Of a stretch of 37,934 nt of DNA, positions 1,030 to 14,432 are shown one piece after another (the first letter of the stretch is position 1; each line of letters starts with the position of its first letter). Below the pieces are notes generated by a model. That model made no database searches. It worked only from the letters and a program-made list of their open reading frames with translations, and was not told the DNA's origin. Both the position numbers and the translations under genes were made by a program. This stretch comes from an uncultured Eubacteriales bacterium (lineage in GTDB: Bacteria > Bacillota > Clostridia > Christensenellales > Aristaeellaceae), in assembly GCA_902801765.1 (NCBI GenBank), contig CADCJO010000001.1, positions 1-37,934 on the forward strand, written 5' to 3'.

Positions 1030-2994
1030 TTGAAAAAACGATTTCCTTTCCTGATCCTTCTTTTATTGCTGACATTCCCCGCGCTGGCGGAGATAGAATT
1101 CAGCGAAGTGATGGCTTCCAACGGCGTGTATATAAACGGCGAAGCCTACGACTGGGTGGAGCTGCACAACACGGGAAAAAAGACCGTCGATCTGAGCGGC
1201 TGCTATCTGTCCGACAGTCAAAAGAAGCCGACAAAATGGGCGTTTCCAAAGAACACCACCATCAAAGCGGGCGGCTATATTCTGGTATACTGCACGGGTG
1301 AAGAATTGAATCCAGGAAAAAACGGAACCTATTACGCGAGCTTTAAAATCTCCGCTTCGGGTGACGACCTGTACCTGACCGACAAGGACGGAGAAACAAC
1401 GCTGGCCTCGGTATCCATTCCTACGCAGTATGGCAACGTTTCCTGGGGGCTTCCGGAGGGCGGCGACGAATATCTGTATTTCAGCGAAGCCACGCCGGGG
1501 AAAAAGAATCCCAAGGAAGGCTACGTTTCCCGCGCCGCTCTGCCGGAGATTCTGACGCCGGGCGGGTTTTATGACAGCGCTGTGACGGTCAGCGCGCAAT
1601 CAAGCGAAGAACTGCGTTATACGCTGGACGGCTCTGCGCCAACGGAAAAATCCAAGGTATTTCCGACAGAAGGATTATCCATCACCAAAACAGCCGTGCT
1701 GCGTGTGCGGGCGTTTGGGGAAAATCAGGTGCCGTCCGAAACGGTGTCTGCCTCTTATTTTATCGGGTTGGAGCAGCCGGTTCCGGTGATTTCCCTGATT
1801 ACCGACGAGAAATATCTGTTCGATAAGAAGACGGGCCTGCTGGTAAAAGGGAACAACGCCGACTATCCAAACTATGAACACGACTGGGAATACCCCGCGA
1901 ACGTGGAATACTTCAATCTCAGCGGCGAATGCGAAATCAATCAGCTGGGCACCTTCACGACAGCGGGTCACTCCGCACGGCAGAACGCCCAGAAGTCCAT
2001 CGCCGTGTTCGCCCGGAAAGCCTACGGCCCAGACCGCTTTTACTTCAATCCCTTCCCGCATCGGGATTATGAAAGCTACAAATCCCTGCTGCTGCGTTCG
2101 GCCAATTCCGACGCTTTTTCCACCCGTCTGCGGGACCCGGCGATTTCTTCCCTGGCGGAACCGCTGAACATCATCTATCAGGACGCGCTGGCGATTGAGG
2201 TGTACATCAATGGCCAATACTGGGGGCACTACAATCTTCGGGAAAAGATCAACAAGCATTTCGTCGCCCAGTGGGAGGGTGTGACGGACAGCGACGAGAT
2301 TGACAAGATCGACATCCTGGCCCGCACGGGGCGGGACGAGTTCGTCAACAACGGGAGCAACGAAGACTGGCTGGCGCTGTGTGATTTCTGCAAAAAGAAG
2401 GATCTGAACGACCCGGAGAATTTGCAGCATGTGCTGGACAATCTGGATATTGACAGCCTATTCACCCATACCGCTTTTGAAATCATCATCGGCAACAACG
2501 ATTTTACCAACGTGCGCGTGTACCGCGTGCCGGGCGGAAAATGGAAATACCTGCTCTTCGACGTGGAAGCGGGCTTCCTGTCCATGGAATCCGGGCCGAT
2601 GAATTACTACATCAAAAAGGTCAATGACAAAATCCAGGGCTTTCGTCATGAACCATTGGCCGCGCTGCTGAATGTACCGGAGATGAAGGCGAAGTTTCTG
2701 ACGCGGTTTGCGGAGGTGCTGGAGCTTTCCTTCCAATGGCCCTATGTGGAAGCGCATTTCCAGCCATGGGAGGAAACGGTCGAAGCGCTTCTGCCACGCC
2801 ACCTGGAGCGCTGGCCGCACTTTACGATGAAGGCCTGGCGGCAGAATGTGGACGCGGTCAAATACTATGCCCGGATGCGCCCTGTCAAGATCGTCGCCAT
2901 GCTGCAAAAGCACATGAGGCTGACCAACGCTGAGGTGGAGCAGTATTTCGGGCAGGTCCAGCAAAAATTGCAGGAAACGAATATTCTCAAATAG
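1030..2994 (+). CDS. Secreted lamin-tail / CotH kinase-like protein
   Basis: The start is a TTG at 1030, preceded by GGAGG at 1014-1018 with a rather long 11-base spacer. Residues 1-20 are a signal peptide ending ALA. Residues about 21-130 resemble a lamin-tail domain (NGEAYDWVELHNTG, LSDSQKKPTKWAF). Residues about 170-245 resemble a chitobiase/Fn3-associated repeat (LRYTLDGSAPTEKS). The rest is a CotH-type domain with INGQYWGHYNLREKI, GNNDFTNVRVYR and FDVEAGF. CotH proteins are atypical protein kinases, best known from Bacillus spore coats; in anaerobes similar proteins are secreted or surface-attached. A coat or cell-surface role is possible. No cohesin, dockerin or sortase signal was seen. 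Confidence 0.85.
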   Translation: MKKRFPFLILLLLLTFPALAEIEFSEVMASNGVYINGEAYDWVELHNTGKKTVDLSGCYLSDSQKKPTKWAFPKNTTIKAGGYILVYCTGEELNPGKNGTYYASFKISASGDDLYLTDKDGETTLASVSIPTQYGNVSWGLPEGGDEYLYFSEATPGKKNPKEGYVSRAALPEILTPGGFYDSAVTVSAQSSEELRYTLDGSAPTEKSKVFPTEGLSITKTAVLRVRAFGENQVPSETVSASYFIGLEQPVPVISLITDEKYLFDKKTGLLVKGNNADYPNYEHDWEYPANVEYFNLSGECEINQLGTFTTAGHSARQNAQKSIAVFARKAYGPDRFYFNPFPHRDYESYKSLLLRSANSDAFSTRLRDPAISSLAEPLNIIYQDALAIEVYINGQYWGHYNLREKINKHFVAQWEGVTDSDEIDKIDILARTGRDEFVNNGSNEDWLALCDFCKKKDLNDPENLQHVLDNLDIDSLFTHTAFEIIIGNNDFTNVRVYRVPGGKWKYLLFDVEAGFLSMESGPMNYYIKKVNDKIQGFRHEPLAALLNVPEMKAKFLTRFAEVLELSFQWPYVEAHFQPWEETVEALLPRHLERWPHFTMKAWRQNVDAVKYYARMRPVKIVAMLQKHMRLTNAEVEQYFGQVQQKLQETNILK

Positions 2995-3020
2995 AACCAG
3001 TTCAGATAGGATGATATTAC

Positions 3021-3923
3021 GTGCCAAGCCGCAGGAGCCAGGAGATGCTGGGAATCATCCGTTCCCACAAGAAGCTTGCCAGCAGCGTGAGCAACGGAAT
3101 GCTGATGAAGGTGGACATACCGGTGGAACAAGCTGCGATGTTCCGCGTGAACGGCACCTCCGCGCTGCCTGTGAACGGATTGGACATGCCCGCCATGCGA
3201 ATCAAGCCGTCCAAAGTATTGGTGGACGACGCGGTATTGCTGCACCTGCATGGCGGCGCTTACGTGTCCGGCGGGCTGCTGCAGTGCCGGGCGCTGATCT
3301 CGCCCATCTGCGCGGAGGCGTGCATTCGCGCGGTCACGTTCTCCTACCGACTGGCGCCGGAGCATTCCTATCCCGCCCAGTTGGACGACGCGTACAAGGT
3401 TTATCAGTTTCTGCGCAGCGCGGGCTTTGAAGCAAAAAAGATCGGTTTGGTGGGGGAAAGTGCCGGAGGAAACCTGGCGCTGGCGCTGACTCTGCGCCTG
3501 CGGGACGAAGGTGAGGAACTGCCCGGCGTGCTGGCGTTGCTTTCGCCCTGGGTAGATTTAGCGCAGACGGGGGAAAGCTACCGCACGCTGAAGGACGTGG
3601 ACGCCACGCTGAACGCCGAAGAACTGCTGCAAAGCGCCATTGCCTTCGCGGGGAGTGAGGATCGGCTGACTGCCCCGGAAATTTCACCTGCTTACGCGGA
3701 TTTCATCGGGTTTCCGCCGACGCTCATTCAATGCGGCACCAGCGAAATTCTGCTGAGCGACTCGGAAAAGCTGGAAAAAGCGATGCTGCGGGATGGCGTA
3801 AACGCCCATCTGGTGCGGTGGGAGGGTATGTGCCACGTGTTTCAGGCTTTCGGCTTTGAGGAAAGCAAGGCTGCCAATCACCAGCTTGGCATATTTTTGT
3901 ATGAGCATTTGCGGAATCACTGA
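3021..3923 (+). CDS. Alpha/beta hydrolase, hormone-sensitive lipase type
   Basis: The 300-residue protein has the HSL-family oxyanion motif HGGAY (residues 77-81) and the nucleophile motif GESAGGN with Ser147. An Asp near residue 247 (LLSDSEKL) and the His of MCHVFQAF near residue 275 complete a plausible triad. Such enzymes hydrolyse short acyl esters; the substrate cannot be told here. The start is GTG at 3021 with AGGATG as a weak ribosome binding site, 26 bases after the CotH gene. No signal peptide is present, so it is likely cytoplasmic even though both neighbours are secreted. Confidence 0.85.
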   Translation: MPSRRSQEMLGIIRSHKKLASSVSNGMLMKVDIPVEQAAMFRVNGTSALPVNGLDMPAMRIKPSKVLVDDAVLLHLHGGAYVSGGLLQCRALISPICAEACIRAVTFSYRLAPEHSYPAQLDDAYKVYQFLRSAGFEAKKIGLVGESAGGNLALALTLRLRDEGEELPGVLALLSPWVDLAQTGESYRTLKDVDATLNAEELLQSAIAFAGSEDRLTAPEISPAYADFIGFPPTLIQCGTSEILLSDSEKLEKAMLRDGVNAHLVRWEGMCHVFQAFGFEESKAANHQLGIFLYEHLRNH

Positions 3924-3942
3924 CGAGCGGGAGGATAAATTA

Positions 3943-5106
3943 TTGTTGCGAAAACTCATGTTATGGGTCATGGCGGTGTGCCTGCTTTTCTGCCTTTGCT
4001 CAAACGTCTTGTGCGAAGAAAGCTACGTCGTAATCGACGATGACGAGAAGAATACCGCACCCGATCCACTGTTTCAAGCAGCGGTCATGATGCGCCGCAT
4101 GAACGACCTGGAAAAAATCTGCCAGCTGTTCATCGTTGCCCCGGAAGCGCTGACGGGGGAAACGCGCACGGCTGTTTTGCCGAATGACCATACGTTTGCT
4201 CAGTATCCGGTGGGGGGAGTAATGCTGTTCGGGCAGAACATCGAATCAGAGCAGCAGCTGCGAAACCTGACGGCGCAGCTCCGCGCACAGGCAGCAGCCA
4301 CCAGGTTGTATCCCTTATTCATCGCTGTGGATGAGGAAGGCGGGCTGGTGTCCCGGGTTGCCAATAAGCTGGGATACGATTTGGCTCCTTCTCCGAACGA
4401 AATCGGGAAAACCGGCGATGAGGCCCATGCGTATGCCGCCGGGCAGTATATCTCCGGATACCTGGCGCCGCTGGGCGTGAATCTGTGTTTTGCGCCGCCC
4501 GCGGATACGGCGTTGGATGATTATATCGATGGGATGCAGTATTATGGGGAAGACCCTGCTCTGGTGTCTCGCCTGGCGTCCGCCATGGCAAAGGGCCTGC
4601 GGGAAGGCGGTGTGGTTCCTTGCTATTCGCATTTCCCTGGGCGTGGCTCCTTTGAGGGGGTGACGCTGAAAAAGCTGTCCATCAAGCGCACGGCGGATGA
4701 AATGCGCAATTCTGAATGGATTCCCTTCCGGGATGGCATCCGGGACAATATCGAAATGATCATGGTGTCCCACGGCCTGTTCCGGCTGATCGAGGATGAC
4801 ATGCCCGCCTCCACCTCCAATCGCGTCGTGAATGGCCTGCTGCGGGGAGAACTGGGGTATCAGGGCGTAGTGGTAACGGACTCTCTGCGAATGAACGCCA
4901 TTGCGTCCAACTATAAAACAGGCCAGGAATGCGTGGCCGCGCTGAAGGCGGGCGCGGATATCCTGCTGCTGCCGCCGGATCTGGGCCGCGCCATTCGCGC
5001 GATTCAGACTGCCATCAGCCAGGGAGATTTGTCCATGCAGCGGATTGAGGAAAGCGTTATCCGTATCCTTGCCGTCAAAATCCGCATGAACGTCGGCAGC
5101 TTTTAA
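3943..5106 (+). CDS. Secreted glycoside hydrolase family 3-like protein, divergent active site
   Basis: The frame resembles the NagZ branch of GH3: AVDEEGG (Asp130), GVNLCFAPPAD, and VVVTDSLRMNAIA with the expected nucleophile Asp313. The usual KHFPGHGDTxxDSH loop reads SHFPGRGSFEG (229-239), so the Lys, second His and Asp/His dyad used as acid/base are missing. It may be a weak hydrolase, a phosphorylase-like variant or a binding protein. I place the start at TTG 3943 because GGGAGG at 3929-3934 is 8 bases away and residues 1-24 then form a signal peptide. An ATG further upstream would overlap the esterase gene. Nothing in the sequence says which sugar it binds. Confidence 0.8.
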   Translation: MLRKLMLWVMAVCLLFCLCSNVLCEESYVVIDDDEKNTAPDPLFQAAVMMRRMNDLEKICQLFIVAPEALTGETRTAVLPNDHTFAQYPVGGVMLFGQNIESEQQLRNLTAQLRAQAAATRLYPLFIAVDEEGGLVSRVANKLGYDLAPSPNEIGKTGDEAHAYAAGQYISGYLAPLGVNLCFAPPADTALDDYIDGMQYYGEDPALVSRLASAMAKGLREGGVVPCYSHFPGRGSFEGVTLKKLSIKRTADEMRNSEWIPFRDGIRDNIEMIMVSHGLFRLIEDDMPASTSNRVVNGLLRGELGYQGVVVTDSLRMNAIASNYKTGQECVAALKAGADILLLPPDLGRAIRAIQTAISQGDLSMQRIEESVIRILAVKIRMNVGSF

Positions 5107-5154
5107 AAAATTGATTTATATAAGTTAAAAAGGGATAAAAACCCTTGACATACC

Positions 5155-5163
5155 TGATATAAT
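5155..5163 (+). promoter_or_regulatory. Extended -10 promoter of the CobW cluster
   Basis: TGATATAAT is a perfect extended -10 element. A TTGACA lies only 7 bases upstream (5145-5150), too close to serve this -10, so recognition probably relies on the TG extension. The start codon at 5220 is about 50 bases downstream. Confidence 0.6.
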
Positions 5164-5219
5164 AAAAAGTGCGGCAGAAAGATGGAATATGTTCTGCGAC
5201 GCAAAGGAGAGAAAGATTT

Positions 5220-6362
5220 ATGGTAAAGGTCAACATTATTTCCGGTTTTCTCGGCGCTGGCAAAACCACGCTGATTAAAAAACTCCTGGGCGGCAAAATC
5301 GCCAAGGAAAAAGTGATCCTTCTGGAAAATGAATACGGCGAAATCGGCATTGACGGCAGCTTTATGAAGGACGCCGGCATCACCGTGACGGAGCTGAATT
5401 CCGGCTGCATCTGCTGCACCCTGGCCGGTGACTTCCAGAAATCCATCGACGAGCTGATCGACACCTACCATCCTGACCGCATCCTGGTAGAGCCCACCGG
5501 CGTTGGCAAGCTGAGTGAAATCATCGCCGCCGTGGAAAAGGCAAAAACCCGTCATGATGATCTTACGATCGCGGGCTGCGCCACCGTGGTGGACGCCAGC
5601 AAGTGCCGTATGTATATGAAGAACTTCGGCGAATTCTTTATCGACCAGGTGAAGTCCGCCGCTACCATTATTTTCAGCCGCACCCAGCTTCTGTCCGCCG
5701 ACCGGGTAGAAAAGAGCCGGGGTCTGATTCTGGAGCAGCATCCCGACGCTCGCATCATCACCACCCCCTGGGATGACCTGGACGCCGACACCGTGCTGGA
5801 AGTGATCGAGAGCGGCAAGCCCATCGAAATCCACGTGGAGCTGGACGACGATGATGATGACGATGAAGATGAACACGAACATCATCACCACCATAACCAC
5901 GACGAGGACGAACACGAGCATCACCATCATGACCATGACGAGGATGAACACGAGCATCATCACCATGACCATGACGAGGATGAGCACGAGCACCATCATC
6001 ATGACCATGACGAAGATGAACATGAACATCATCACGATCATGACCATCATCACCACCATCACCATCATCCCGGCGAGCACGACGCGGACGAAGTGTTCGA
6101 GAACGTCGGCGTGGAAACGGCCCGCCGCTTCACCGAGGATGAGATCCGCAGCATGACGGCGGCGCTGTCCGATCAGGAAGAATACGGCCTGATCCTGCGC
6201 GCCAAGGGCATCCTGCAAAAGCCCGAGGGCGAATGGTTCCAGTTCGATTATGTACCCGGCGAATTGCAGCTTCGTCCCAGCACGCCGGATTACGCGGGCC
6301 GCCTGGTGGTCATCGGCACCAACATCGACGAAAAAGCGCTCAAGGCCCTGTTCCAGATTTAA
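5220..6362 (+). CDS. CobW-family P-loop metallochaperone-like GTPase with His/Asp/Glu-rich segment
   Basis: The 380-residue protein has Walker A GFLGAGKTT (9-17), the CobW metal-binding motif SGCICC (Cys63, 65, 66) and EPTGVG (91-96). Residues 209-283 are almost only His, Asp and Glu. A CobW C-terminal domain follows (about 290-380). COG0523 proteins deliver Zn, Co or other metals to client proteins; the acidic His tail suggests a metal store or capture arm. The guanine-recognition site, normally NKxD, reads SRTQ (153-156). The start is ATG 5220, after AAAGGAGAG. GNAT and second CobW-like genes follow on the same strand. Which metal it handles cannot be read from sequence. Confidence 0.9.
   Translation: MVKVNIISGFLGAGKTTLIKKLLGGKIAKEKVILLENEYGEIGIDGSFMKDAGITVTELNSGCICCTLAGDFQKSIDELIDTYHPDRILVEPTGVGKLSEIIAAVEKAKTRHDDLTIAGCATVVDASKCRMYMKNFGEFFIDQVKSAATIIFSRTQLLSADRVEKSRGLILEQHPDARIITTPWDDLDADTVLEVIESGKPIEIHVELDDDDDDDEDEHEHHHHHNHDEDEHEHHHHDHDEDEHEHHHHDHDEDEHEHHHHDHDEDEHEHHHDHDHHHHHHHHPGEHDADEVFENVGVETARRFTEDEIRSMTAALSDQEEYGLILRAKGILQKPEGEWFQFDYVPGELQLRPSTPDYAGRLVVIGTNIDEKALKALFQI
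5844..6068 (+). repeat. Coding tandem repeat, 36-bp unit (12 aa)
   Basis: Inside the CobW gene, the unit DEDEHEHHHHDH is repeated exactly three times (5901-6008). Variant copies lie on each side (5862-5900 and from 6009), with an Asp run before and a His run after. Synonymous codons vary between copies, so the peptide is better conserved than the DNA. Such arrays can change length by slippage. Confidence 0.9.
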
Positions 6363-6384
6363 CAGCATTTGTGGATAAAACGCC

Positions 6385-6792
6385 ATGGAAATCAAAGAAT
6401 ATACTGAATACAGCGAGGAAGAAATCCTGCGCCTGTATGCCGCCGTTGGCTGGACAGCCTACACGAAGAACACGGAAGCGCTGAAACAGGGCTTCCAGCG
6501 CTCTTTGCTGGTGCTGGCAGCCTATGAAAAGGATGAACTGCTTGGCATCCTCCGCGCGGTCGGCGATGGATACACCATCGTATTCGTTCAGGATATTCTT
6601 GTTTTCCCCGATCAGCAGTGGCGGGGCGTTGGCACTGCGCTGCTGCGGGCTGTGCTTGAGCGGTATTCCCATGTACGCCAGATCGAGCTGGTCACGGACC
6701 GCACGGAAAAGACGATTGCCTTTTACAAATCCCTTGGATTCTCAGAGCTTTCATCCATCGGTTGCTGTGGATTCATGAGATGCCCAAAATAA
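6385..6792 (+). CDS. GNAT family N-acetyltransferase
   Basis: This 135-residue protein has a GNAT core: VQDILVFPDQQWRGVGTALLRAVLERY supplies motif A with the acetyl-CoA loop RGVGTA, and IAFYKSLGFSEL is the typical C-terminal segment. It would transfer an acyl group from acyl-CoA to an amine; the acceptor is unknown. It lies 22 bases after the first CobW gene and 17 bases before the second, on the same strand, so it is probably in their operon. The ribosome binding site is weak (GTGGA), which may mean coupled translation. Length is normal for a minimal GNAT. Confidence 0.85.
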   Translation: MEIKEYTEYSEEEILRLYAAVGWTAYTKNTEALKQGFQRSLLVLAAYEKDELLGILRAVGDGYTIVFVQDILVFPDQQWRGVGTALLRAVLERYSHVRQIELVTDRTEKTIAFYKSLGFSELSSIGCCGFMRCPK

Positions 6793-6809
6793 ACGATTAA
6801 GGAAAGCAT

Positions 6810-7760
6810 ATGAAAACGACACAGAAAATCGCCGGGGTCTACATTGTGACCGGCTTCATCGAAAGCGGAAAGACCACCCTCATCCACTCCATGCTGGAGG
6901 ACAAGGGCTTTTCCCGGGGTGAAAAAACCCTGATCATCAGCTGTGAGGAGGGCATCGAGGAATACGATGAAGCCCTGCTCAAGGAAAACAATTGCACTCT
7001 GGTGACCATGGACGACAAAGACCAGTGGACGGAAGAAAGCTTGCGGCGCATCGACGCCCAGGTGCAGCCCGAGCGGGTCATCATCGAGTACAACAACATG
7101 TGGACGATCGACTACATGGGCAAGGTGGAAATGCCGGCCCTGTGGCGGGTGGTGCAGGTGATCACCACGGTGGATGCCACCACGTTTGACAACTACATGG
7201 CCAATGTGCGCACCATCCTGACCGACCCCATGAAGGAAGCCGACCTGGTGCTGTTCAACCGCTGCACCGAGGACATGCCCAAATCCCAGTGGCGGCGGGC
7301 CATCCGCGCCCTGAACCCCAACACCAACATTCTCTTTGAAAACAAGGATGGTTCCTCTGAGGATGGCATCGCCGATGAGGATTTGCCCTATGACATGAAA
7401 GCCGAGATTATCGACATTGCCGACGATCAGCTGGGCATTTTCTACATCGACTCCCTGGATCACCCGGAGCGCTACGACGGCAAGACCGTCCGTTTCGTGG
7501 GCCAGCCCTTTCCGGATAAGGCCATTCCCCAGGGCTACTATTACTTTGGCCGCCTGGCCATGACCTGCTGCGCCAATGACATTCAGCAGATGGGCTGGGT
7601 GACCCAGGGGAATTTAAAGCCCTCCACCCGCCACTTCTATCGGCTCACCGCCAAGTGCAGCAAGATGACCGGGGGAGACGGTCGGGCCATCCTGACCTTC
7701 AGCGAGGTCAGCGCGGAACCCGCAGCCCGGCCTCGGGAAAAGTATATCACGTTTAATTGA
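6810..7760 (+). CDS. CobW-like P-loop protein fused to a DUF1980/TIGR03943-like C-terminal domain
   Basis: Residues 15-23 form a P-loop (GFIESGKTT). The N-terminal ~200 residues follow the CobW fold outline, but the CxCC motif is absent, EPTG is replaced by EYNN and NKxD by NRCT. The last ~110 residues (GKTVRFVGQPF, then YYYFGRLAMTCCANDIQQMGWV) resemble the C-terminal domain of DUF1980/TIGR03943 (YcgQ-like) proteins. Those usually sit beside a YcgR-like permease and CobW genes linked to zinc control in Bacillus. No permease lies here, so the fusion may work with one encoded elsewhere. The start is supported by AAGGAA. Confidence 0.75.
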   Translation: MKTTQKIAGVYIVTGFIESGKTTLIHSMLEDKGFSRGEKTLIISCEEGIEEYDEALLKENNCTLVTMDDKDQWTEESLRRIDAQVQPERVIIEYNNMWTIDYMGKVEMPALWRVVQVITTVDATTFDNYMANVRTILTDPMKEADLVLFNRCTEDMPKSQWRRAIRALNPNTNILFENKDGSSEDGIADEDLPYDMKAEIIDIADDQLGIFYIDSLDHPERYDGKTVRFVGQPFPDKAIPQGYYYFGRLAMTCCANDIQQMGWVTQGNLKPSTRHFYRLTAKCSKMTGGDGRAILTFSEVSAEPAARPREKYITFN

Positions 7761-7766
7761 CGCATG

Positions 7767-7793
7767 GCCCCTGCCTTTTCTGACAGGGGCTTT
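7767..7793 (+). terminator. Short intrinsic terminator after the CobW cluster
   Basis: GCCCCTG (7767-7773) and CAGGGGC (7784-7790) form a perfect 7-bp stem with a 10-base loop, followed by only three T residues. It is weak, so some read-through into tldD is possible. Confidence 0.6.
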
Positions 7794-7820
7794 CCTGAAT
7801 TTATGAAGGAGGCGAAACCA

Positions 7821-9218
7821 TTGTCCTTTTCAACCTATCTGGATGGCAAGCGGCAGGACTGCCGGGAACTGGTGGAAGCGCTGGGCAAGCACTTTCAGTA
7901 TGTCAGCATCCTGGGTACGGACGTGACCGCAACGGTAATTCGCGCTGACAGAAATATGTCCATGGTACAGGACGGGCGCGGGGAATGCGGCTTTGTGCTG
8001 AAAATGCACAACGGGCATTCGTTTATCGAATATTCTTTGGACGACATTTCCGGCGACAAGCAGGCATTGGCTGATCAAATCATCCGGGAAACGGCCATTG
8101 ACGCCGAACTGCAAAGCAGGATGATCGAAGCGCCTGTTCCCACGGACGAACCGATGAAGCAGGATTTCAGCCGGGAAAACGACTTCGCCGATTATGACGA
8201 CGCTTCCCTGCTGGATACCTGCAAACAGCTTTCCGCCGATTTGATTTCCAAAGATGACAAGGTGCTGAATGCTTTTGCCATTATTCAGCCCTATCATGTC
8301 TCCAAACTGTTCATTACCAAAAACCGTGAGCTGTCTCAGGATTACGGCTGGGCCAACGGCATTCTGATGGTGATTTACAACGGTGAAAAAATGGCTCAGG
8401 CACGGTTCGGAGACGGTGCGTCGAGCATTAAGGAAGTATTGAATATACTCAATGGCGGCTTGGATCAGGTGATCGACCTTGCCAGGCACCTGGCGAAAGC
8501 AAAGCCCATAGAACCGGGCGTATATGACGTAATCACCGACCCGTCCATTTCCGGCCTGATCGCTCACGAGGCCTTCGGCCATGGGGTGGAAATGGATCAG
8601 TTTGTGAAAGACCGGGCCATGGCCAAGCACTGCATGGGCCAGTATGTGGCTTCACCCATCACCAATATGCACGATGGCGCGGCAGCGACGCATTCTGTGG
8701 CATCCTATTTCTTTGACGACGACGGCGTGTTGGCTCACGATACCCAGATCATCAAGGACGGCATTTTGGTATCCGGCCTGTCTGACCTGGCTTCCGCCGA
8801 ACAATTGGGCACCGCGCCCACCGGCAACGGCCGCCGTGACTCCTATAAGCGCAAAGCCTATGCCCGCATGACCAACACGTTCTTTGAAGCGGGCAAAGAT
8901 AAGCTGGAAGACATGATCGCTTCCATCCAGCATGGGTATATGCTGTTTGAAACCAATAACGGCATGGAAGACCCCAAGAACTGGCAAATTCAGTGCACTG
9001 CCGAATACGGCATAGAAATCGTGGACGGTAAGCTGACGGAGAATTACGTGTCGCCCGTGGTGATGAGCGGGTCTGTGCCCGACCTGCTCAAGTCCATTTC
9101 CATGGTGTCTGACAACTTTAAGGTCATTGGCGCCGGCATGTGCGGCAAAGGCTACAAGGAATGGGTGCGGGTGTCCGACGGCGGGCCGAACCTGAAAGTG
9201 AGGGTGAAGCTGGGATGA
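7821..9218 (+). CDS. tldD: Metalloprotease TldD
   Basis: The 465-residue protein carries the TldD signature LIAHEAFGHGVEMD, giving the zinc motif HExxxH (His249, Glu250, His254). A Cys in GAGMCGKG near the C-terminus matches the third ligand position known from E. coli TldD. TldD and TldE form a heterodimer that degrades unfolded peptides and, in some bacteria, matures ribosomal peptides such as microcin B17. I chose TTG 7821 because AAGGAGG ends 8 bases before it, whereas an earlier ATG (7764) lies in front of the terminator hairpin. The gene overlaps tldE by four bases. No candidate peptide substrate gene was seen nearby. Confidence 0.9.
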   Translation: MSFSTYLDGKRQDCRELVEALGKHFQYVSILGTDVTATVIRADRNMSMVQDGRGECGFVLKMHNGHSFIEYSLDDISGDKQALADQIIRETAIDAELQSRMIEAPVPTDEPMKQDFSRENDFADYDDASLLDTCKQLSADLISKDDKVLNAFAIIQPYHVSKLFITKNRELSQDYGWANGILMVIYNGEKMAQARFGDGASSIKEVLNILNGGLDQVIDLARHLAKAKPIEPGVYDVITDPSISGLIAHEAFGHGVEMDQFVKDRAMAKHCMGQYVASPITNMHDGAAATHSVASYFFDDDGVLAHDTQIIKDGILVSGLSDLASAEQLGTAPTGNGRRDSYKRKAYARMTNTFFEAGKDKLEDMIASIQHGYMLFETNNGMEDPKNWQIQCTAEYGIEIVDGKLTENYVSPVVMSGSVPDLLKSISMVSDNFKVIGAGMCGKGYKEWVRVSDGGPNLKVRVKLG

Positions 9219-10492
9219 GCAACGTGATTGAATTGCTGAAGCAAAACAGCCAACTCAGCGGCTGGCGCGTCAATGAAACAGCCACCAAATCCTATGAGCT
9301 GTTTTTCGTTCACAAAAACCTGGAGACCGTCCGGGCCACCGACACCGTGACCACCAGCGTAACTGTATATGTGGATCATGACGGCAAGAAGGGAGAATCT
9401 TCTTTTGAACTATCCGCAGCCATGGGGGAGGCTGAGGCTCAAAAAAAGATCGACGCTGCCGTTCAGCGGGCCAGGCTGGTGTTCAACGAACCGTATGAAT
9501 TGCCCGATGGGGGAGAACTGAACAAGGATTTGCCCTCCAATATGTGGGATGCTGAACCTCAAACGCTGGGTCGGCAGATTGCAGACGCGGTATTCGCGGC
9601 GGATACGGTGCCGGACGGCTCCATCAACGCCTGCGAAATCTTTCTGTACAAGGACACGGTTCGCGTGCGCAACAGCCGGGGGATCGACAAAACCCAGCGG
9701 ATTGGCCGGGTGATGATCGAGGCCATCCCCACCTTCACGGAAGGAACGGAATCCGTGGAACTGTACGAAGATTACCGCTTCACAGAGTTTGACCCGACCA
9801 AGGTCACTGCTGAAATCGCTCGCCGCATGGCAGAGGTGCGTGACCGCTTCCAAGCGAAAAAGCCGGAAACCCCCATGAAAATCAGCGTGCTGCTGCGGCC
9901 TGCTGAGATCCTGGAAATGCTTTGGACGTTGGTGGACGACCTGAATTATGCCGCCGTTTACAGCCATGGCAACCTGCATAAAACCGGCGACAACATCCAG
10001 GAAAACAGTACGGGTGACAAGTTGACCGTGACCCTGAAAGCCCAGATGCCCGGCAGTGAAAAATCCTCCTGGTTCGATACGGACGGCGCTTCTTTCCAGG
10101 ATACCCGAGTGATCGAAAACGGTATCGTGACTTCGTACTTCGGAAGCAGCAGATTTGGTCAGTACCTGAACATCCGGCAGCCCACCGGCAACCTGCCCTG
10201 CTTGAAAGCGGAAACAGGCACCATGGCAAAAACGGATATGAAAGCGGAGCCCTACCTGGAATGCGCGTCCCTGTCGGGTATTCAGGTGGATTTGTTCAAT
10301 GATTATATCGGCGGTGAAATCCGCCTGGCATACTGCTTTGATGGGGAAAAGACCACGCCCGTTACCGGCATTTCCATGAGCGGAAAGCTGAGCGACGTAC
10401 TGAAAACCATGCGTTTATCCCGCGAGGCTGTCATTGAAGGCGCGTATGAAGGCCCGGCGCTGCTGCTGATGCCCCAAATGAAAGTGCTGTAA
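9215..10492 (+). CDS. tldE: TldE/PmbA family protein
   Basis: This 425-residue partner of TldD has the family's late segments (STGDKLTVTLKAQMPGS, DTRVIENGIVTSYFGSSRFGQYLN, TPVTGISMSGKLSDVLK) but no HExxxH, as expected for TldE/PmbA, which builds the chamber without carrying the metal. Its ATG overlaps the tldD TGA as ATGA, so translation is probably coupled and the two products made in equal amounts. A strong terminator follows at 10502. Length is close to the family norm. Confident family call; the specific substrate in this organism is unknown. Confidence 0.9.
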   Translation: MSNVIELLKQNSQLSGWRVNETATKSYELFFVHKNLETVRATDTVTTSVTVYVDHDGKKGESSFELSAAMGEAEAQKKIDAAVQRARLVFNEPYELPDGGELNKDLPSNMWDAEPQTLGRQIADAVFAADTVPDGSINACEIFLYKDTVRVRNSRGIDKTQRIGRVMIEAIPTFTEGTESVELYEDYRFTEFDPTKVTAEIARRMAEVRDRFQAKKPETPMKISVLLRPAEILEMLWTLVDDLNYAAVYSHGNLHKTGDNIQENSTGDKLTVTLKAQMPGSEKSSWFDTDGASFQDTRVIENGIVTSYFGSSRFGQYLNIRQPTGNLPCLKAETGTMAKTDMKAEPYLECASLSGIQVDLFNDYIGGEIRLAYCFDGEKTTPVTGISMSGKLSDVLKTMRLSREAVIEGAYEGPALLLMPQMKVL

Positions 10493-10501
10493 GGATCATG
10501 T

Positions 10502-10540
10502 GCTCCTGACCGTTCCCCACGGTCAGGAGCTTTTCTTTTT
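10502..10540 (+). terminator. Intrinsic terminator of tldD-tldE
   Basis: GCTCCTGACCGT (10502-10513) pairs perfectly with ACGGTCAGGAGC (10519-10530) across TCCCC. The T-rich tract TTTTCTTTTT follows. Confidence 0.95.
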
Positions 10541-10564
10541 GCCTGAAACCAGACCAAATGATAC

Positions 10565-10593
10565 TTGTCATTCAGTGGATTCTGTGGTAAACT
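10565..10593 (+). promoter_or_regulatory. Promoter of the symporter/hydrolase pair
   Basis: TTGTCA (10565-10570) and TAAACT (10588-10593) are 17 bases apart, after the tldE terminator and 38 bases before the symporter ATG. Confidence 0.6.
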
Positions 10594-10631
10594 GAACGGG
10601 TATAAAAGTGAAAAGAGAGGGGAAAACACAT

Positions 10632-11996
10632 ATGAGTCAAAAGAAAAAACTCACCACGGGAAAAGTCTGGTGTTTTGCTATCGGCCAGCTGGGATGGAGC
10701 ATCCTGAGCGCGCTGATTTCCAATTTTATGGCGCAGTATTACGCGCCTGACCCCGCCACCATCGAAGCGGGCCAGCCGATCTTCATTCCTCAGGGATTGG
10801 TGATTTTCGGCGTGTTGACCATCCTGGCGTTCATCACCGGCTTTGGCCGGGTGTTTGACGCCATCACCGACCCGCTGATCGGCTCCATGTCCGACCGGTG
10901 CACAGCCAAATCGGGCCGCCGCATTCCCTTTATGAAAGCCGCCGCCATTCCCTTCGCGCTCGTAACCGTGCTCACCTTCTGGTCGCCCGTGAACGGGGAA
11001 AGTTGGCTGAATGCCGGGTTCCTGTTCCTGATGCTGACGCTGTTCTACCTGTTCATGACCATGTATTGCACACCCTACAACGCGCTCATTCCGGAGCTTG
11101 GCACCGACCAGAAAACCCGCATGGCCATATCCACCACGATTTCCTTCACGTTCATCGCCGGTATGGCGATTGCCTACGCGGCGCCTTTCCTGTGGGGCAT
11201 GGTGCAGGGAGCGCTGAATGTGGACAGGGTGACGGCCATTCGCTTGGTGTTTACGGTCATGAGCCTGATCGCCCTGGTGTGCATGTTCGTGCCGGTGTTC
11301 ACGATCAAGGAAAAGGATTACGTCACCGCTCAGCCCAGCCAATCCACCGCCCTCAAATCCCTGGCCGCCACCTTCCGGAACAAGGATTTCCGTATCTTTG
11401 TAGCCTCCGACATCGTGTACTTCCTGGGGATCACCATGTTCCAGAGCGCCATGCTGTACTTCGTGACCTCGCTGCTCAAACTGGATGAAAGCATTTCCAC
11501 CATTTACTTTGTGCTCATGACCGCCCTGTCCGTTCTGTTCTACCCGCTGGTGAGTAAGCTGACCCCCAAGCTGGGCAAGAAAAAGCTGATTCTGATTGCT
11601 TTCTGCATCTTCACCGCAGCCTTCATATACACCGCCTGTCTGGGGTCCCTACCCATTCCTGCTGAAATCCAGGGTTACATCCTGTGCGTCATCGCCGCGC
11701 CTGCCATGGCCATCTTCGGCATCCTGCCCCAGGCTGTGGTGGCGGATATTGCGGAGAGCGATGAGATCGATACCCACGAAAACCGCAGCGGCATGTTCTA
11801 CGCCGCCCGCACCTTCGCCATGAAGATGGGCCAGGCCGTTGCCATCATGCTGGTCACCACCCTGGGCACGATCCAGCAGGAAACCGGGTTCGGCTACCGC
11901 CTGATCGCCATTATTGCCGCAATCGTATGTGCCTTGGGCGGCTTCCTGTTCATGATGTACAACGAAAAGAAGATCTACAGCAAGATCATGAAGTAA
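10632..11996 (+). CDS. GPH-type major facilitator symporter
   Basis: The 454-residue protein has about 12 membrane helices and the cytoplasmic motif RVFDAITDPLIGSMSDR, typical of glycoside-pentoside-hexuronide:cation symporters (MelB/XynB-type). The second-half motif ESDEIDTHENRSGMFYAAR is also characteristic. It should import a sugar or glycoside with a cation; the substrate cannot be read here. I use ATG 10632, about 10 bases after GAGAGGGG, rather than the GTG at 10608, which would precede that site. A hydrolase gene follows after 16 bases. No sugar-specific hydrolase or regulator lies beside it. Confidence 0.88.
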   Translation: MSQKKKLTTGKVWCFAIGQLGWSILSALISNFMAQYYAPDPATIEAGQPIFIPQGLVIFGVLTILAFITGFGRVFDAITDPLIGSMSDRCTAKSGRRIPFMKAAAIPFALVTVLTFWSPVNGESWLNAGFLFLMLTLFYLFMTMYCTPYNALIPELGTDQKTRMAISTTISFTFIAGMAIAYAAPFLWGMVQGALNVDRVTAIRLVFTVMSLIALVCMFVPVFTIKEKDYVTAQPSQSTALKSLAATFRNKDFRIFVASDIVYFLGITMFQSAMLYFVTSLLKLDESISTIYFVLMTALSVLFYPLVSKLTPKLGKKKLILIAFCIFTAAFIYTACLGSLPIPAEIQGYILCVIAAPAMAIFGILPQAVVADIAESDEIDTHENRSGMFYAARTFAMKMGQAVAIMLVTTLGTIQQETGFGYRLIAIIAAIVCALGGFLFMMYNEKKIYSKIMK

Positions 11997-12012
11997 CGCG
12001 GGAGGTTTCGGT

Positions 12013-12993
12013 ATGTGTGAAGCTTTCAGTCCAGAGGGTCTGGTGCTTTCTGCCGCTTACGCGGATACCATGGATCACCTGGTGCTCCCGTATCTCAAAG
12101 CGCGGCAGAAGGACAGCACGGTTTCCGGCGCGGATCAGAAGCCGCTGTTCTGTTCCCAGTATACCGCCGACCAGCCAAAGGGCACCGTCCTGGTTATTCA
12201 CGGCTTTACAGAAACCGCCCTCAAATTTTCCGAGCTGATTTATTCCCTGCTGCAAAACGGGTATAACGTAGTGGCTTATGACCAACGGGGCCACGGCCGC
12301 TCCTGGCGTTCAGAAAAAGCGAAGGATATTTCATTGGTTCATGTGGATCATTTCAGCGATTATGTGCGCGACATGGAAATCATCGTGGAAACCGTCATTG
12401 CCAAGATGCCTAAGCCCTGGCTGCTGCTTTCCCATTCCATGGGCGGTGCAGTGTCTGGTTTGTATCTGGAAAAGCATCCCGATACGTTCTCCCGTGCAGC
12501 GTTCTGCTCCCCGATGATTCAGGCGAACACGGGTATATCCACCATTGTGGTCAAACTGCTCTGTCATGGCGCAAAGCTGATTGGCAAAGGTGGAAGCCGT
12601 GTATTCATTTCCAAGCCCTACACGCAAAAAGAAACCTTTGAGGAATCTGTCGCTACGGGACGGGAGAGATTTGAATGGTATGAAAACATCCGCTTTATCA
12701 CAAAGGAATATCAGACGAACGGTCCGTCCTATGCCTGGACGCTGGAATCTGTGCGGGTAACAGCGAAGCTGCTGGCTCCCGGCGCGCCGGAAAGAATCGC
12801 CTGTTCCGTGCGGTTGTATACCGCGGAACTGGACAATACCGTGATGCCGGACCCACAGAAGCAGTTTATCTCCCGCATCAAAAACGGTTCCCATGTCATT
12901 GTGAAAGGAGCCAAGCACGAAATCTACCGTTCCAGCGATGACGTGCTGTTCCCCTGGTGGCACGACGTGCTGACGTTCCTGAAAGGTAATTGA
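12013..12993 (+). CDS. Alpha/beta hydrolase, monoacylglycerol lipase/lysophospholipase type
   Basis: The 326-residue protein has VIHGFTE (oxyanion region, His63), AYDQRGHGRS and the nucleophile elbow SHSMGG with Ser142. Asp in TAELDNTVMP and His in GAKHEIYRS complete the triad, matching the Hydrolase_4 (serine aminopeptidase S33/PldB) family. It probably hydrolyses monoacylglycerols, lysophospholipids or similar esters. No signal peptide is seen. GGGAGG precedes the ATG and the gene follows the symporter closely, so both come from the promoter at 10565. The link to transport is not clear. Confidence 0.87.
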   Translation: MCEAFSPEGLVLSAAYADTMDHLVLPYLKARQKDSTVSGADQKPLFCSQYTADQPKGTVLVIHGFTETALKFSELIYSLLQNGYNVVAYDQRGHGRSWRSEKAKDISLVHVDHFSDYVRDMEIIVETVIAKMPKPWLLLSHSMGGAVSGLYLEKHPDTFSRAAFCSPMIQANTGISTIVVKLLCHGAKLIGKGGSRVFISKPYTQKETFEESVATGRERFEWYENIRFITKEYQTNGPSYAWTLESVRVTAKLLAPGAPERIACSVRLYTAELDNTVMPDPQKQFISRIKNGSHVIVKGAKHEIYRSSDDVLFPWWHDVLTFLKGN

Positions 12994-14324: not shown

Positions 14325-14432
14325 CGCCTTATCTGCCAGCGCGTTGCCGCGCTGCTGGAATTAGCACCTTGCGGTTTTCCGCCGGTTGCCGGGCTTCATT
14401 GGGCCAGTCCCTCAGCCGCTCTGGATAAGGTA
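14325..14432 (-). ncRNA. SAM-I (S-box) riboswitch aptamer
   Basis: Read on the minus strand, the leader has the conserved S-box blocks in order: CTTATCCAGAG, GGCTGAGGGACTGGCCC, AATGAAGCCCGGCAACC, AAGGTGCTAATTCCA, and the closing GCAGATAAG that pairs with the first block to form P1. SAM binding stabilises P1 and lets the downstream terminator form. The position directly ahead of metK is the classic one. Confidence 0.97.

Follow-up and report, generated by a model that had tools for sequence, protein, structure and literature searches.

The window analysed here is a stretch of 37,934 nucleotides from an uncultured Eubacteriales bacterium of the family Aristaeellaceae (assembly GCA_902801765.1, contig CADCJO010000001.1). 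It carries two genes of CobW-type proteins, here called C1 and C2, with a gene of a GNAT acetyltransferase between them. We hold it moderately probable that C1 and C2 form a two-gene operon that encodes a cytosolic machine for metal hand-over, most likely of zinc. This machine would be a permease-free relative of a zinc-linked gene cluster of other Bacillota, and the acetyltransferase would take no part in it. The pairing of the genes, the motifs of their products, the domain fusion in C2, the lineages shared with permease-bearing relatives and the zinc genes around those relatives are read directly from the sequences.

Conservation of the pair and its motifs

Three samples were used. A scan of genome contigs for C2 gave 402 stretches, 395 of which encode relatives; the best 80 loci were kept for locus counts. 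The record titles of these loci name Clostridia/Clostridiales, Christensenellaceae, Lachnospiraceae, Oscillospiraceae, Ruminococcaceae, Eubacteriales or Bacillota. The second sample consists of 398 genomes of the phylum drawn whole, and the third of 41 genomes of relatives (cut-offs E <=1e-20 for C2, E <=1e-30 for C1 and E <=1e-10 for GNAT). Both include the genome of the window, which is 2.4 Mb long and 81% complete. The loci and genomes compared are kin and do not represent independent samples.

In 64 of the 80 loci C1 immediately precedes C2 on the same strand, no more than 153 bp away (some of the called starts overlap). Less than 1.3 kb of upstream sequence is available in 15 loci, of which 13 show the C-terminal end of C1 and two start with C2 (L063, L076). 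Several C1 copies are cut by contig ends. Whole or cut in this way, C1 precedes C2 in 77 of the 78 loci having any upstream sequence; it was not found in the 2.6 kb upstream of C2 in L027 (1/80). In the 398-genome draw, 87 genomes gave a match to the C2 model at E 0.001, and full-length C2 numbers only 11, in ten genomes including that of the window; many of the other matches are plain CobW or DUF1980 proteins. C1 adjoins 10 of these 11 full-length C2. Among the 41 genomes of relatives C2 is present in 20 and C1 in 19: both occur in 18, C2 only in two, C1 only in one and neither in 20 (Fisher p 1.7e-8, a value that is too small since the genomes are related). The two genes share one contig in 16 of the 20 C2-bearing genomes. 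C1-C2 appears to be an old pair, widely conserved in gut Clostridia, and it probably handles metal, as the original prediction supposed for this region.

C1 (5220..6362, + strand) is a CobW/COG0523 NTPase of 380 amino acids with a CobW_C domain, matched by PF02492 with E 3e-37 (128.4 bits) and by PF07683 with E 7.4e-9 (35.8 bits, cut-off 22). Its nearest solved structure is that of E. coli YjiA (E 7.4e-17). The CxCC motif after switch I that marks COG0523 is present as CICC, a predicted metal-binding motif, at residues 63-66 (5406..5417, + strand); GCICC stands in all 61 readable rows of the 65 aligned C1. Walker A is intact (GFLGAGKTT in 60/60 readable rows), and so is the Walker B Glu, within E-P-[TS]-G in the rows printed. 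The base-recognition (G4) site reads SRTQ in place of NKxD at residues 153-156 (5676..5687, + strand). Across the 64 readable rows of the same alignment it is SRTQ in 58, SRSQ in five and SRTG in one, with an intact NKxD in none. Residues 209-283 (5844..6068, + strand) form an arm of exactly 75 uninterrupted H/D/E/N residues, including 38 H, 21 D and 15 E. The complete CxCC and this arm are as originally described. At least 10 His lie between the NTPase and CobW_C domains in all 64 C1 of at least 250 amino acids (window included), and 23 of these 64 have C-x-C within the arm. The arms of C1 in L022, L030, L065, L072 and L078 bear repeated Cys units amid the His repeats (CDCGCH, ECCGHH), which gives them a metallothionein-like appearance.

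C2 (6810..7760, + strand) has 316 amino acids and joins a CobW-like P-loop NTPase to a DUF1980_C domain, a fusion that had been proposed from the letters of the window and is borne out by profile scores. PF02492 matches weakly but clearly (38.9 bits, cut-off 20.7) and DUF1980_C (PF21537) reaches 31.9 bits (cut-off 25.9); the latter domain is over its cut-off in the C2 of all ten C2-bearing genomes. As also noted earlier, CxCC is absent, so C2 is filed as CobW-like and not as COG0523. Hydropathy gave no membrane segment above threshold in C2, and against TIGR03943 it scores 40.1 of the 88.8 bits needed. The G4 site NRCT (residues 150-153; 7257..7268, + strand) retains of NKxD only the first Asn. 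N150 and R151 are invariant in 32/32 aligned rows, while the Lys and Asp of NKxD are not kept. The P-loop residues G15, G20 and K21 and the Walker B Glu E93 are invariant in the same 32 rows. The DUF1980_C domain holds a CCxxD motif, a candidate metal site, at residues 253-257 (7566..7580, + strand). C253, C254 and D257 are likewise invariant (32/32); CCxxD is present in all nine further C2 inspected, and of 11 membrane DUF1980 proteins 10 have it in their C-terminal part (in the remaining one, d_L107, the sole match is elsewhere, at residue 72). We considered the invariant Cys45 of C2 as a third ligand beside C253 and C254. It is constant in the 32 rows and replaced in three (L129, L131, L135) of the eight wider C2 whose switch region was printed, a ninth not matching the search pattern, and this candidate was dropped. 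The AlphaFold2 model of C2 has pLDDT 86.4 and pTM 0.59, and Foldseek relates it to HypB, YjiA, UreG and SRP GTPases, a likeness that bears on the NTPase part only.

The constancy of these sites also bears on the best-surviving alternative, namely that C1 alone is a working zinc metallochaperone and C2 is a decayed paralogue, a structural subunit or an inhibitor, with neither NTPase activity nor metal transfer. C2 does diverge faster than C1 in the same loci (in L048 C1 is 83% identical and C2 52%), and it has lost both the G3 glycine and CxCC. However, G20, K21, E93 and CCxxD are invariant in 32/32 aligned C2, and with P-loop, Walker B Glu and CCxxD all retained the NTP and metal sites of C2 look selected. 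We regard decay of C2 as rather unlikely.

Lineages shared with a permease-bearing cluster

An unrooted tree was built of 76 rows of NTPase domains. C1 forms one clade of 27 rows (support 99/94), nested in a clade of 34 rows (96/96) together with four C1 of permease-bearing genomes and three others. G4 was printed for 14 rows of the larger clade and is always S-x-[TSN]-x (SRTQ, SRSQ, SHTT, SRTG, SKTK, SKND, SMTQ); one row of this clade, c1_L103, still ends G4 in Asp. Eight other COG0523 proteins in the tree have NKxD (7) or TKTD (1). C2 forms one clade of 28 rows (100/97); a second C2 copy, L132, has lost NR at G4. C2, the permease-fused CobW domains and the small separate CobW domains described below (the latter two designated CobW2) agree, as far as rows were printed, in lacking the CxCC loop and in having E-x-N at G3; the domains of all three lie on one side of the tree (93/88). 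CxCC was absent from C2, from the four ArsP_1 fusions and from the two small CobW2 printed.

Judging from these alignments, SRTQ and NR are old lineage traits and not recent parallel losses. Relatives share both changes, which excludes sequence errors as their cause. The original prediction read the two sites correctly and suggested from them a possible parallel loss of GTP specificity. The lack of a normal NKxD in both proteins stands. The idea of a local event does not: SR[TS]Q is found in 63 of 64 C1 and NR in 32 of 32 C2, so that the motifs are common in their own families, which the prediction itself had named among its refuting observations, with S-x-[TSN]-x in rows of the wider C1 subfamily.

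The permease-bearing relatives were found in 12 stretches from 11 genomes of the 398-genome draw, picked by hand where half-matches to NTPase and DUF1980 stand side by side; this set is not a census. Four of the 12 encode a protein of 516-549 amino acids in which a CobW domain precedes PF03773 (ArsP_1, a predicted permease). The same four also hold a membrane DUF1980-domain protein and a C1-type gene. In L098 and L101, the two stretches tested, the membrane DUF1980 protein exceeds the TIGR03943 cut-off. When 97 genomes of the class to which G307 belongs were searched at E 1e-90, four fusions came up, one being that of G307 and three additional. All seven distinct CobW2::ArsP_1 fusions have C1-type and DUF1980 genes in the same stretch (C1 is cut by a contig end in L102 and is divergent in L152). 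In G151 and G203 CobW2 is a separate small protein adjoining ArsP_1 and DUF1980 genes, and a ZnuA-like gene (118-126 bits with a profile made from one sequence) and C1 are adjacent or at a second locus. The membrane DUF1980 proteins (n=11) have two to four hydropathy segments; their DUF1980_C may lie outside the cell or inside. The sharing of the C1 and C2-type NTPase lineages between the pair and a zinc-linked ArsP_1/DUF1980 cluster of other Bacillota is, as read from the tree and the gene neighbourhoods, what is new here.

The link to zinc comes from genes around the fusions. Matches to Fur, ABC-3, ZnuA and ArsP in loci were scored with our own profiles, with Pfam checks for some. A Fur-type gene is near five of the seven fusions (with just 48 bits in L098) and an ABC-3 (Znu-type) permease near four (L099, L100, L102, L150). 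Pfam confirmed FUR in L099, L100 and L102, ABC-3 in L100 and L102, and ZnuA in L102. The B. anthracis data support zinc and fit either uptake or efflux: in the available text of the study Zur binds upstream of BAS1632, which encodes an ArsP_1 permease, and the adjacent locus tag, BAS1633, belongs to yciC (PMC6336718).

These zinc genes argue against the second alternative, in which the same machine serves another cargo or direction: nickel, cobalt/corrinoid, copper or an organo-metal(loid), or a pair descended from an exporter. Some organo-metal(loid)s are exported by ArsP permeases. The permease part of the fusions scores best on the SO_0444 Cu/Zn efflux and SaoE efflux models, without coming near the cut-off of either, and the C-x-C units in the arms of C1 would also suit a different metal. 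COG0523 members are described as serving zinc, cobalt and iron in the available text of PMC9164220, and the interpretation of Zur as an activator of the B. anthracis ArsP_1 permease (PMC6336718) would fit another direction. With Fur-type genes and ABC-3 permeases beside most of the fusions, and with Zur bound upstream of such a permease gene, we regard a different cargo or direction as unlikely, more so than decay of C2.

Within the ten C2-bearing genomes of the 398-genome draw the membrane part of the cluster is largely missing. ArsP_1 is over its cut-off in one (G142, away from the pair), weak in one and absent from eight, and all 11 DUF1980_C matches are C2 itself. ZnuA is present in six of the ten, the window's included, away from the pair. 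Fur-family matches occur in nine (eight over cut-off).

Proposed mechanism and known systems

For a zinc hand-over pair we propose the following scheme. C1 would be a metallochaperone that stores metal on the His/Asp/Glu arm, binds a single ion at CICC, which lies in the NTP-dependent switch region, and passes metal on to client proteins. C2 would be its partner P-loop NTPase, on which CCxxD of DUF1980_C serves as a dock for metal, free or in a complex. A heterodimer of the two NTPases is probable, and hydrolysis may power the transfer between the dock on C2 and C1. The permease would have been lost in the lineage of the window and DUF1980_C joined directly to the NTPase. Since the tree is unrooted, the fusion may instead have been gained elsewhere; we favour loss. 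A bolder form of this scheme is an obligate, SRP/FtsY-like heterodimer of unlike G3E-type NTPases with no guanine preference, one with CxCC and a metal store and the other with a membrane-derived dock, which arose from a zinc permease complex turned cytosolic. We put it forward as a tentative possibility.

Several observations weigh against the hand-over scheme and its link to zinc. The 93/88 split in the tree carries no star, and long branches lead to two of the fusions. In L061 the reading frame of C1 falls into two pieces, and one C2 (G142 contig 16, L146) has no C1 in the 11 kb fetched. Apart from C1, no neighbour family recurs in more than 9 of 81 neighbourhoods. The G3 glycine of C2 is not conserved, so C2 may hydrolyse poorly. 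The domain arrangement in the C2 model is unsure at pTM 0.59, and the arrangement was not used. As to zinc, the profiles of Fur, ABC-3, ZnuA and ArsP match none of the 80 loci or the window, and no Fur-family gene was found in the 81% complete genome of the window. Zur-box-like sites occur upstream of C1 in 1/59 cases at p 0.05, which is the chance level; this search is insensitive, as it gave no clear box in Fur-bearing loci either. Two of the seven fusions have no Fur or Znu-type gene nearby (L151 on a 4.7 kb contig, and L152, 13.5 kb). Five of the 12 picked stretches (L105-L109) hold ArsP_1-DUF1980 pairs with no CobW match. Fur, ABC-3 and ZnuA matches are present in L105 and absent from L106-L109. 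Therefore the ArsP_1-DUF1980 pair is wider than its link to CobW and is not always beside zinc genes. Finally, in B. anthracis the Zur boxes at the ArsP_1 permease gene were interpreted as positive regulation (PMC6336718), which suits efflux as well as uptake.

The genome G142 also has a normal pair in addition to the second C2 on its contig 16 (L146, 5162-6097), whose G4 site is altered.

Known systems resemble the pair in part. The COG0523 zinc metallochaperones (YciC/ZagA, ZigA, YjiA) are like C1 in the P-loop, GCICC and the His-rich stretch between NTPase and CobW_C. In contrast, C1 has SRTQ and not NKxD, is paired with C2, and does not come near the scores that the models of ZigA (78.8 of 600 bits) and CobW (87.7 of 332.1) require. 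The best NCBIfam match of the C2 NTPase domain is NF041053, a CobW-related selenoprotein, with 40.5 bits, far below the cut-off of 180. The membrane pair of ArsP_1 and TIGR03943/DUF1980, named YcgR/YcgQ, is like C2 in having DUF1980_C with CCxxD, and the C1 and CobW2 lineages stand in such clusters of other Bacillota. C2 differs in having no membrane segment, no permease nearby and no TIGR03943-level score. FeoB belongs to another NTPase class and has another permease than the CobW2::ArsP_1 fusions. By analogy, the permease-bearing relatives are similar to it in that an NTPase is joined to a permease (FeoB unites an NTPase and an iron permease in one protein; PMC9164220, available text), whereas the form found in the window is without a permease. 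SMU_747c is a named example for the ArsP_1 permease and DUF1980 membrane pair in the available text of PMC6336718. As to the nucleotide, CooC and ATP-using HypB offer a comparison: CooC, like C2, keeps only the first Asn of G4, and it binds an adenine nucleotide, although it is of the MinD/BioD class (PMC9164220, available text). Because of this, and because NTPase metallochaperones differ in base preference (PMC9164220), a loss of GTP preference and use of another nucleotide by the pair are plausible by analogy.

In the available text of Haas et al. 2009 (PMC2770081) Zur-linked COG0523 genes are reported, two of them in some genomes, with CxCC in all COG0523; a CxCC-less CobW fused to DUF1980 or ArsP_1 is not described in that text. 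The available text of the 2026 S. aureus ZigA paper (PMC13339975) contains nothing on a C1-C2-like pair. A literature search for COG0523 with DUF1980 found no description, a weak negative as most subscription papers were outside its reach. The COG0523 literature, as far as its available text goes, treats members as single GTPases that pass on zinc, cobalt or iron. In the present case two unlike members of the CobW group, both with no guanine site, are inherited together across many Clostridia, and relatives fuse the second to a permease, often beside zinc-uptake genes. The pair thus offers a testable partner and a possible route for zinc to the chaperone system: membrane permease, DUF1980 site, CobW2, CobW1. 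It also suggests a role for DUF1980_C, which is named in Pfam only as a domain of unknown function.

The acetyltransferase gene, the upstream region and neighbouring genes

The GNAT gene (6385..6792, + strand; 135 amino acids) is inserted between C1 and C2. Its product matches PF13508, PF13673 and PF00583 over their cut-offs, and with 2atr as its best solved relative (E 1.2e-33) it looks like an ordinary small acetyltransferase. A GNAT stands between C1 and C2 in one of the 77 loci showing C1 or its end upstream of C2 (L008, same order, 76% identical) and is lacking there in L006, L007 and L009. The C2 of L006 is 100% identical to that of the window, yet the intergenic distance is 9 bp and there is no GNAT. 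GNAT matches occur in nine of the 41 genomes of relatives and adjoin C2 in two of the 20 C2-bearing ones, the window's and G410; by its coordinates G410 is L008 read backwards, i.e., one record. In 15 of the 16 one-contig genomes 345-663 bp separate the C1 NTPase domain from C2; in the window's genome this span is 1003 bp. The original prediction counted the enzyme as part of the module and suggested looking for the triad in other Clostridia, nearly all of which turn out to lack the GNAT there; the absence that it named as refuting is thus in substance what is seen. The insertion is, on this comparison of gene orders, a chance one outside the conserved unit. That the enzyme acylates C1, C2 or a client during metal delivery is highly improbable, given that its co-directional placement at 22 bp from C1 and 17 bp from C2, and the same order in L008, are set against its absence from the other 76 loci, the unusual span in the window's genome, related GNATs on contigs other than that of C2 in G415 (46%) and G420 (53%), and GNATs present without C2 in G405 and G437.

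Upstream of C1 there is a TTGACA-N7-TATAAT element (5145..5163, + strand), a probable extended -10 promoter with a conserved TTGACA just 7 bp away; this element may act as promoter, operator or both. The 7 bp spacing is one helical turn below the usual 17. TTGAC-N8-TATAAT occurs in 22 of 59 C1 upstream regions, while spacings 5, 6 and 8-11 occur in 0/59. The 2.4 Mb genome has two exact TTGACA-N7-TATAAT sites, the other one being inside an open frame of 416 amino acids. In the genus of the window there are 27 exact sites. Of these, 13 stand ahead of C1, and they are spread over 13 of the 14 genomes that have a C1 match. A promoter scan of 5000-8000 gave two sigma-70-like sites, both on the other strand. 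Between the -10-like and ribosome sites we saw by eye a short GC-rich inverted repeat of varying sequence, at 5164-5210 of the window and in the leaders of L011, L013, L048, L049, L056 and L060. It is possibly a 5' stabilising hairpin.

Two genes of TldD/PmbA-type metallopeptidases lie directly 3' of C2 (7764-10492) and could be local clients. As fixed clients TldD/TldE were rejected: they are directly 3' of C2 only in the window itself and, among the 13 nearest loci (L006-L018), in nine, and in L019-L085 a TldD-like gene never directly follows C2, the matches in L038 and L041 being about 1.5-3 kb away. In L070, L075, L081 and L084 the pair is preceded, upstream of C1, by what look like infC, rpmI and rplT; parts of this presumed order are also seen in L069, L080, L082 and L085.

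The scan with Pfam and NCBIfam found a CotH protein, an alpha/beta hydrolase, a GH3 enzyme, the two TldD/PmbA-type proteins, an MFS_2 transporter and a lysophospholipase-like hydrolase near the pair. No metal permease is among the ten window proteins scanned (1030-12993), in agreement with the earlier remark that no zinc permease is adjacent. No Rfam element was found near the pair at gathering score in the window scan. The sole match of this kind in the window is a SAM riboswitch at 14326-14431 (- strand, 90.6 bits), far from the pair.

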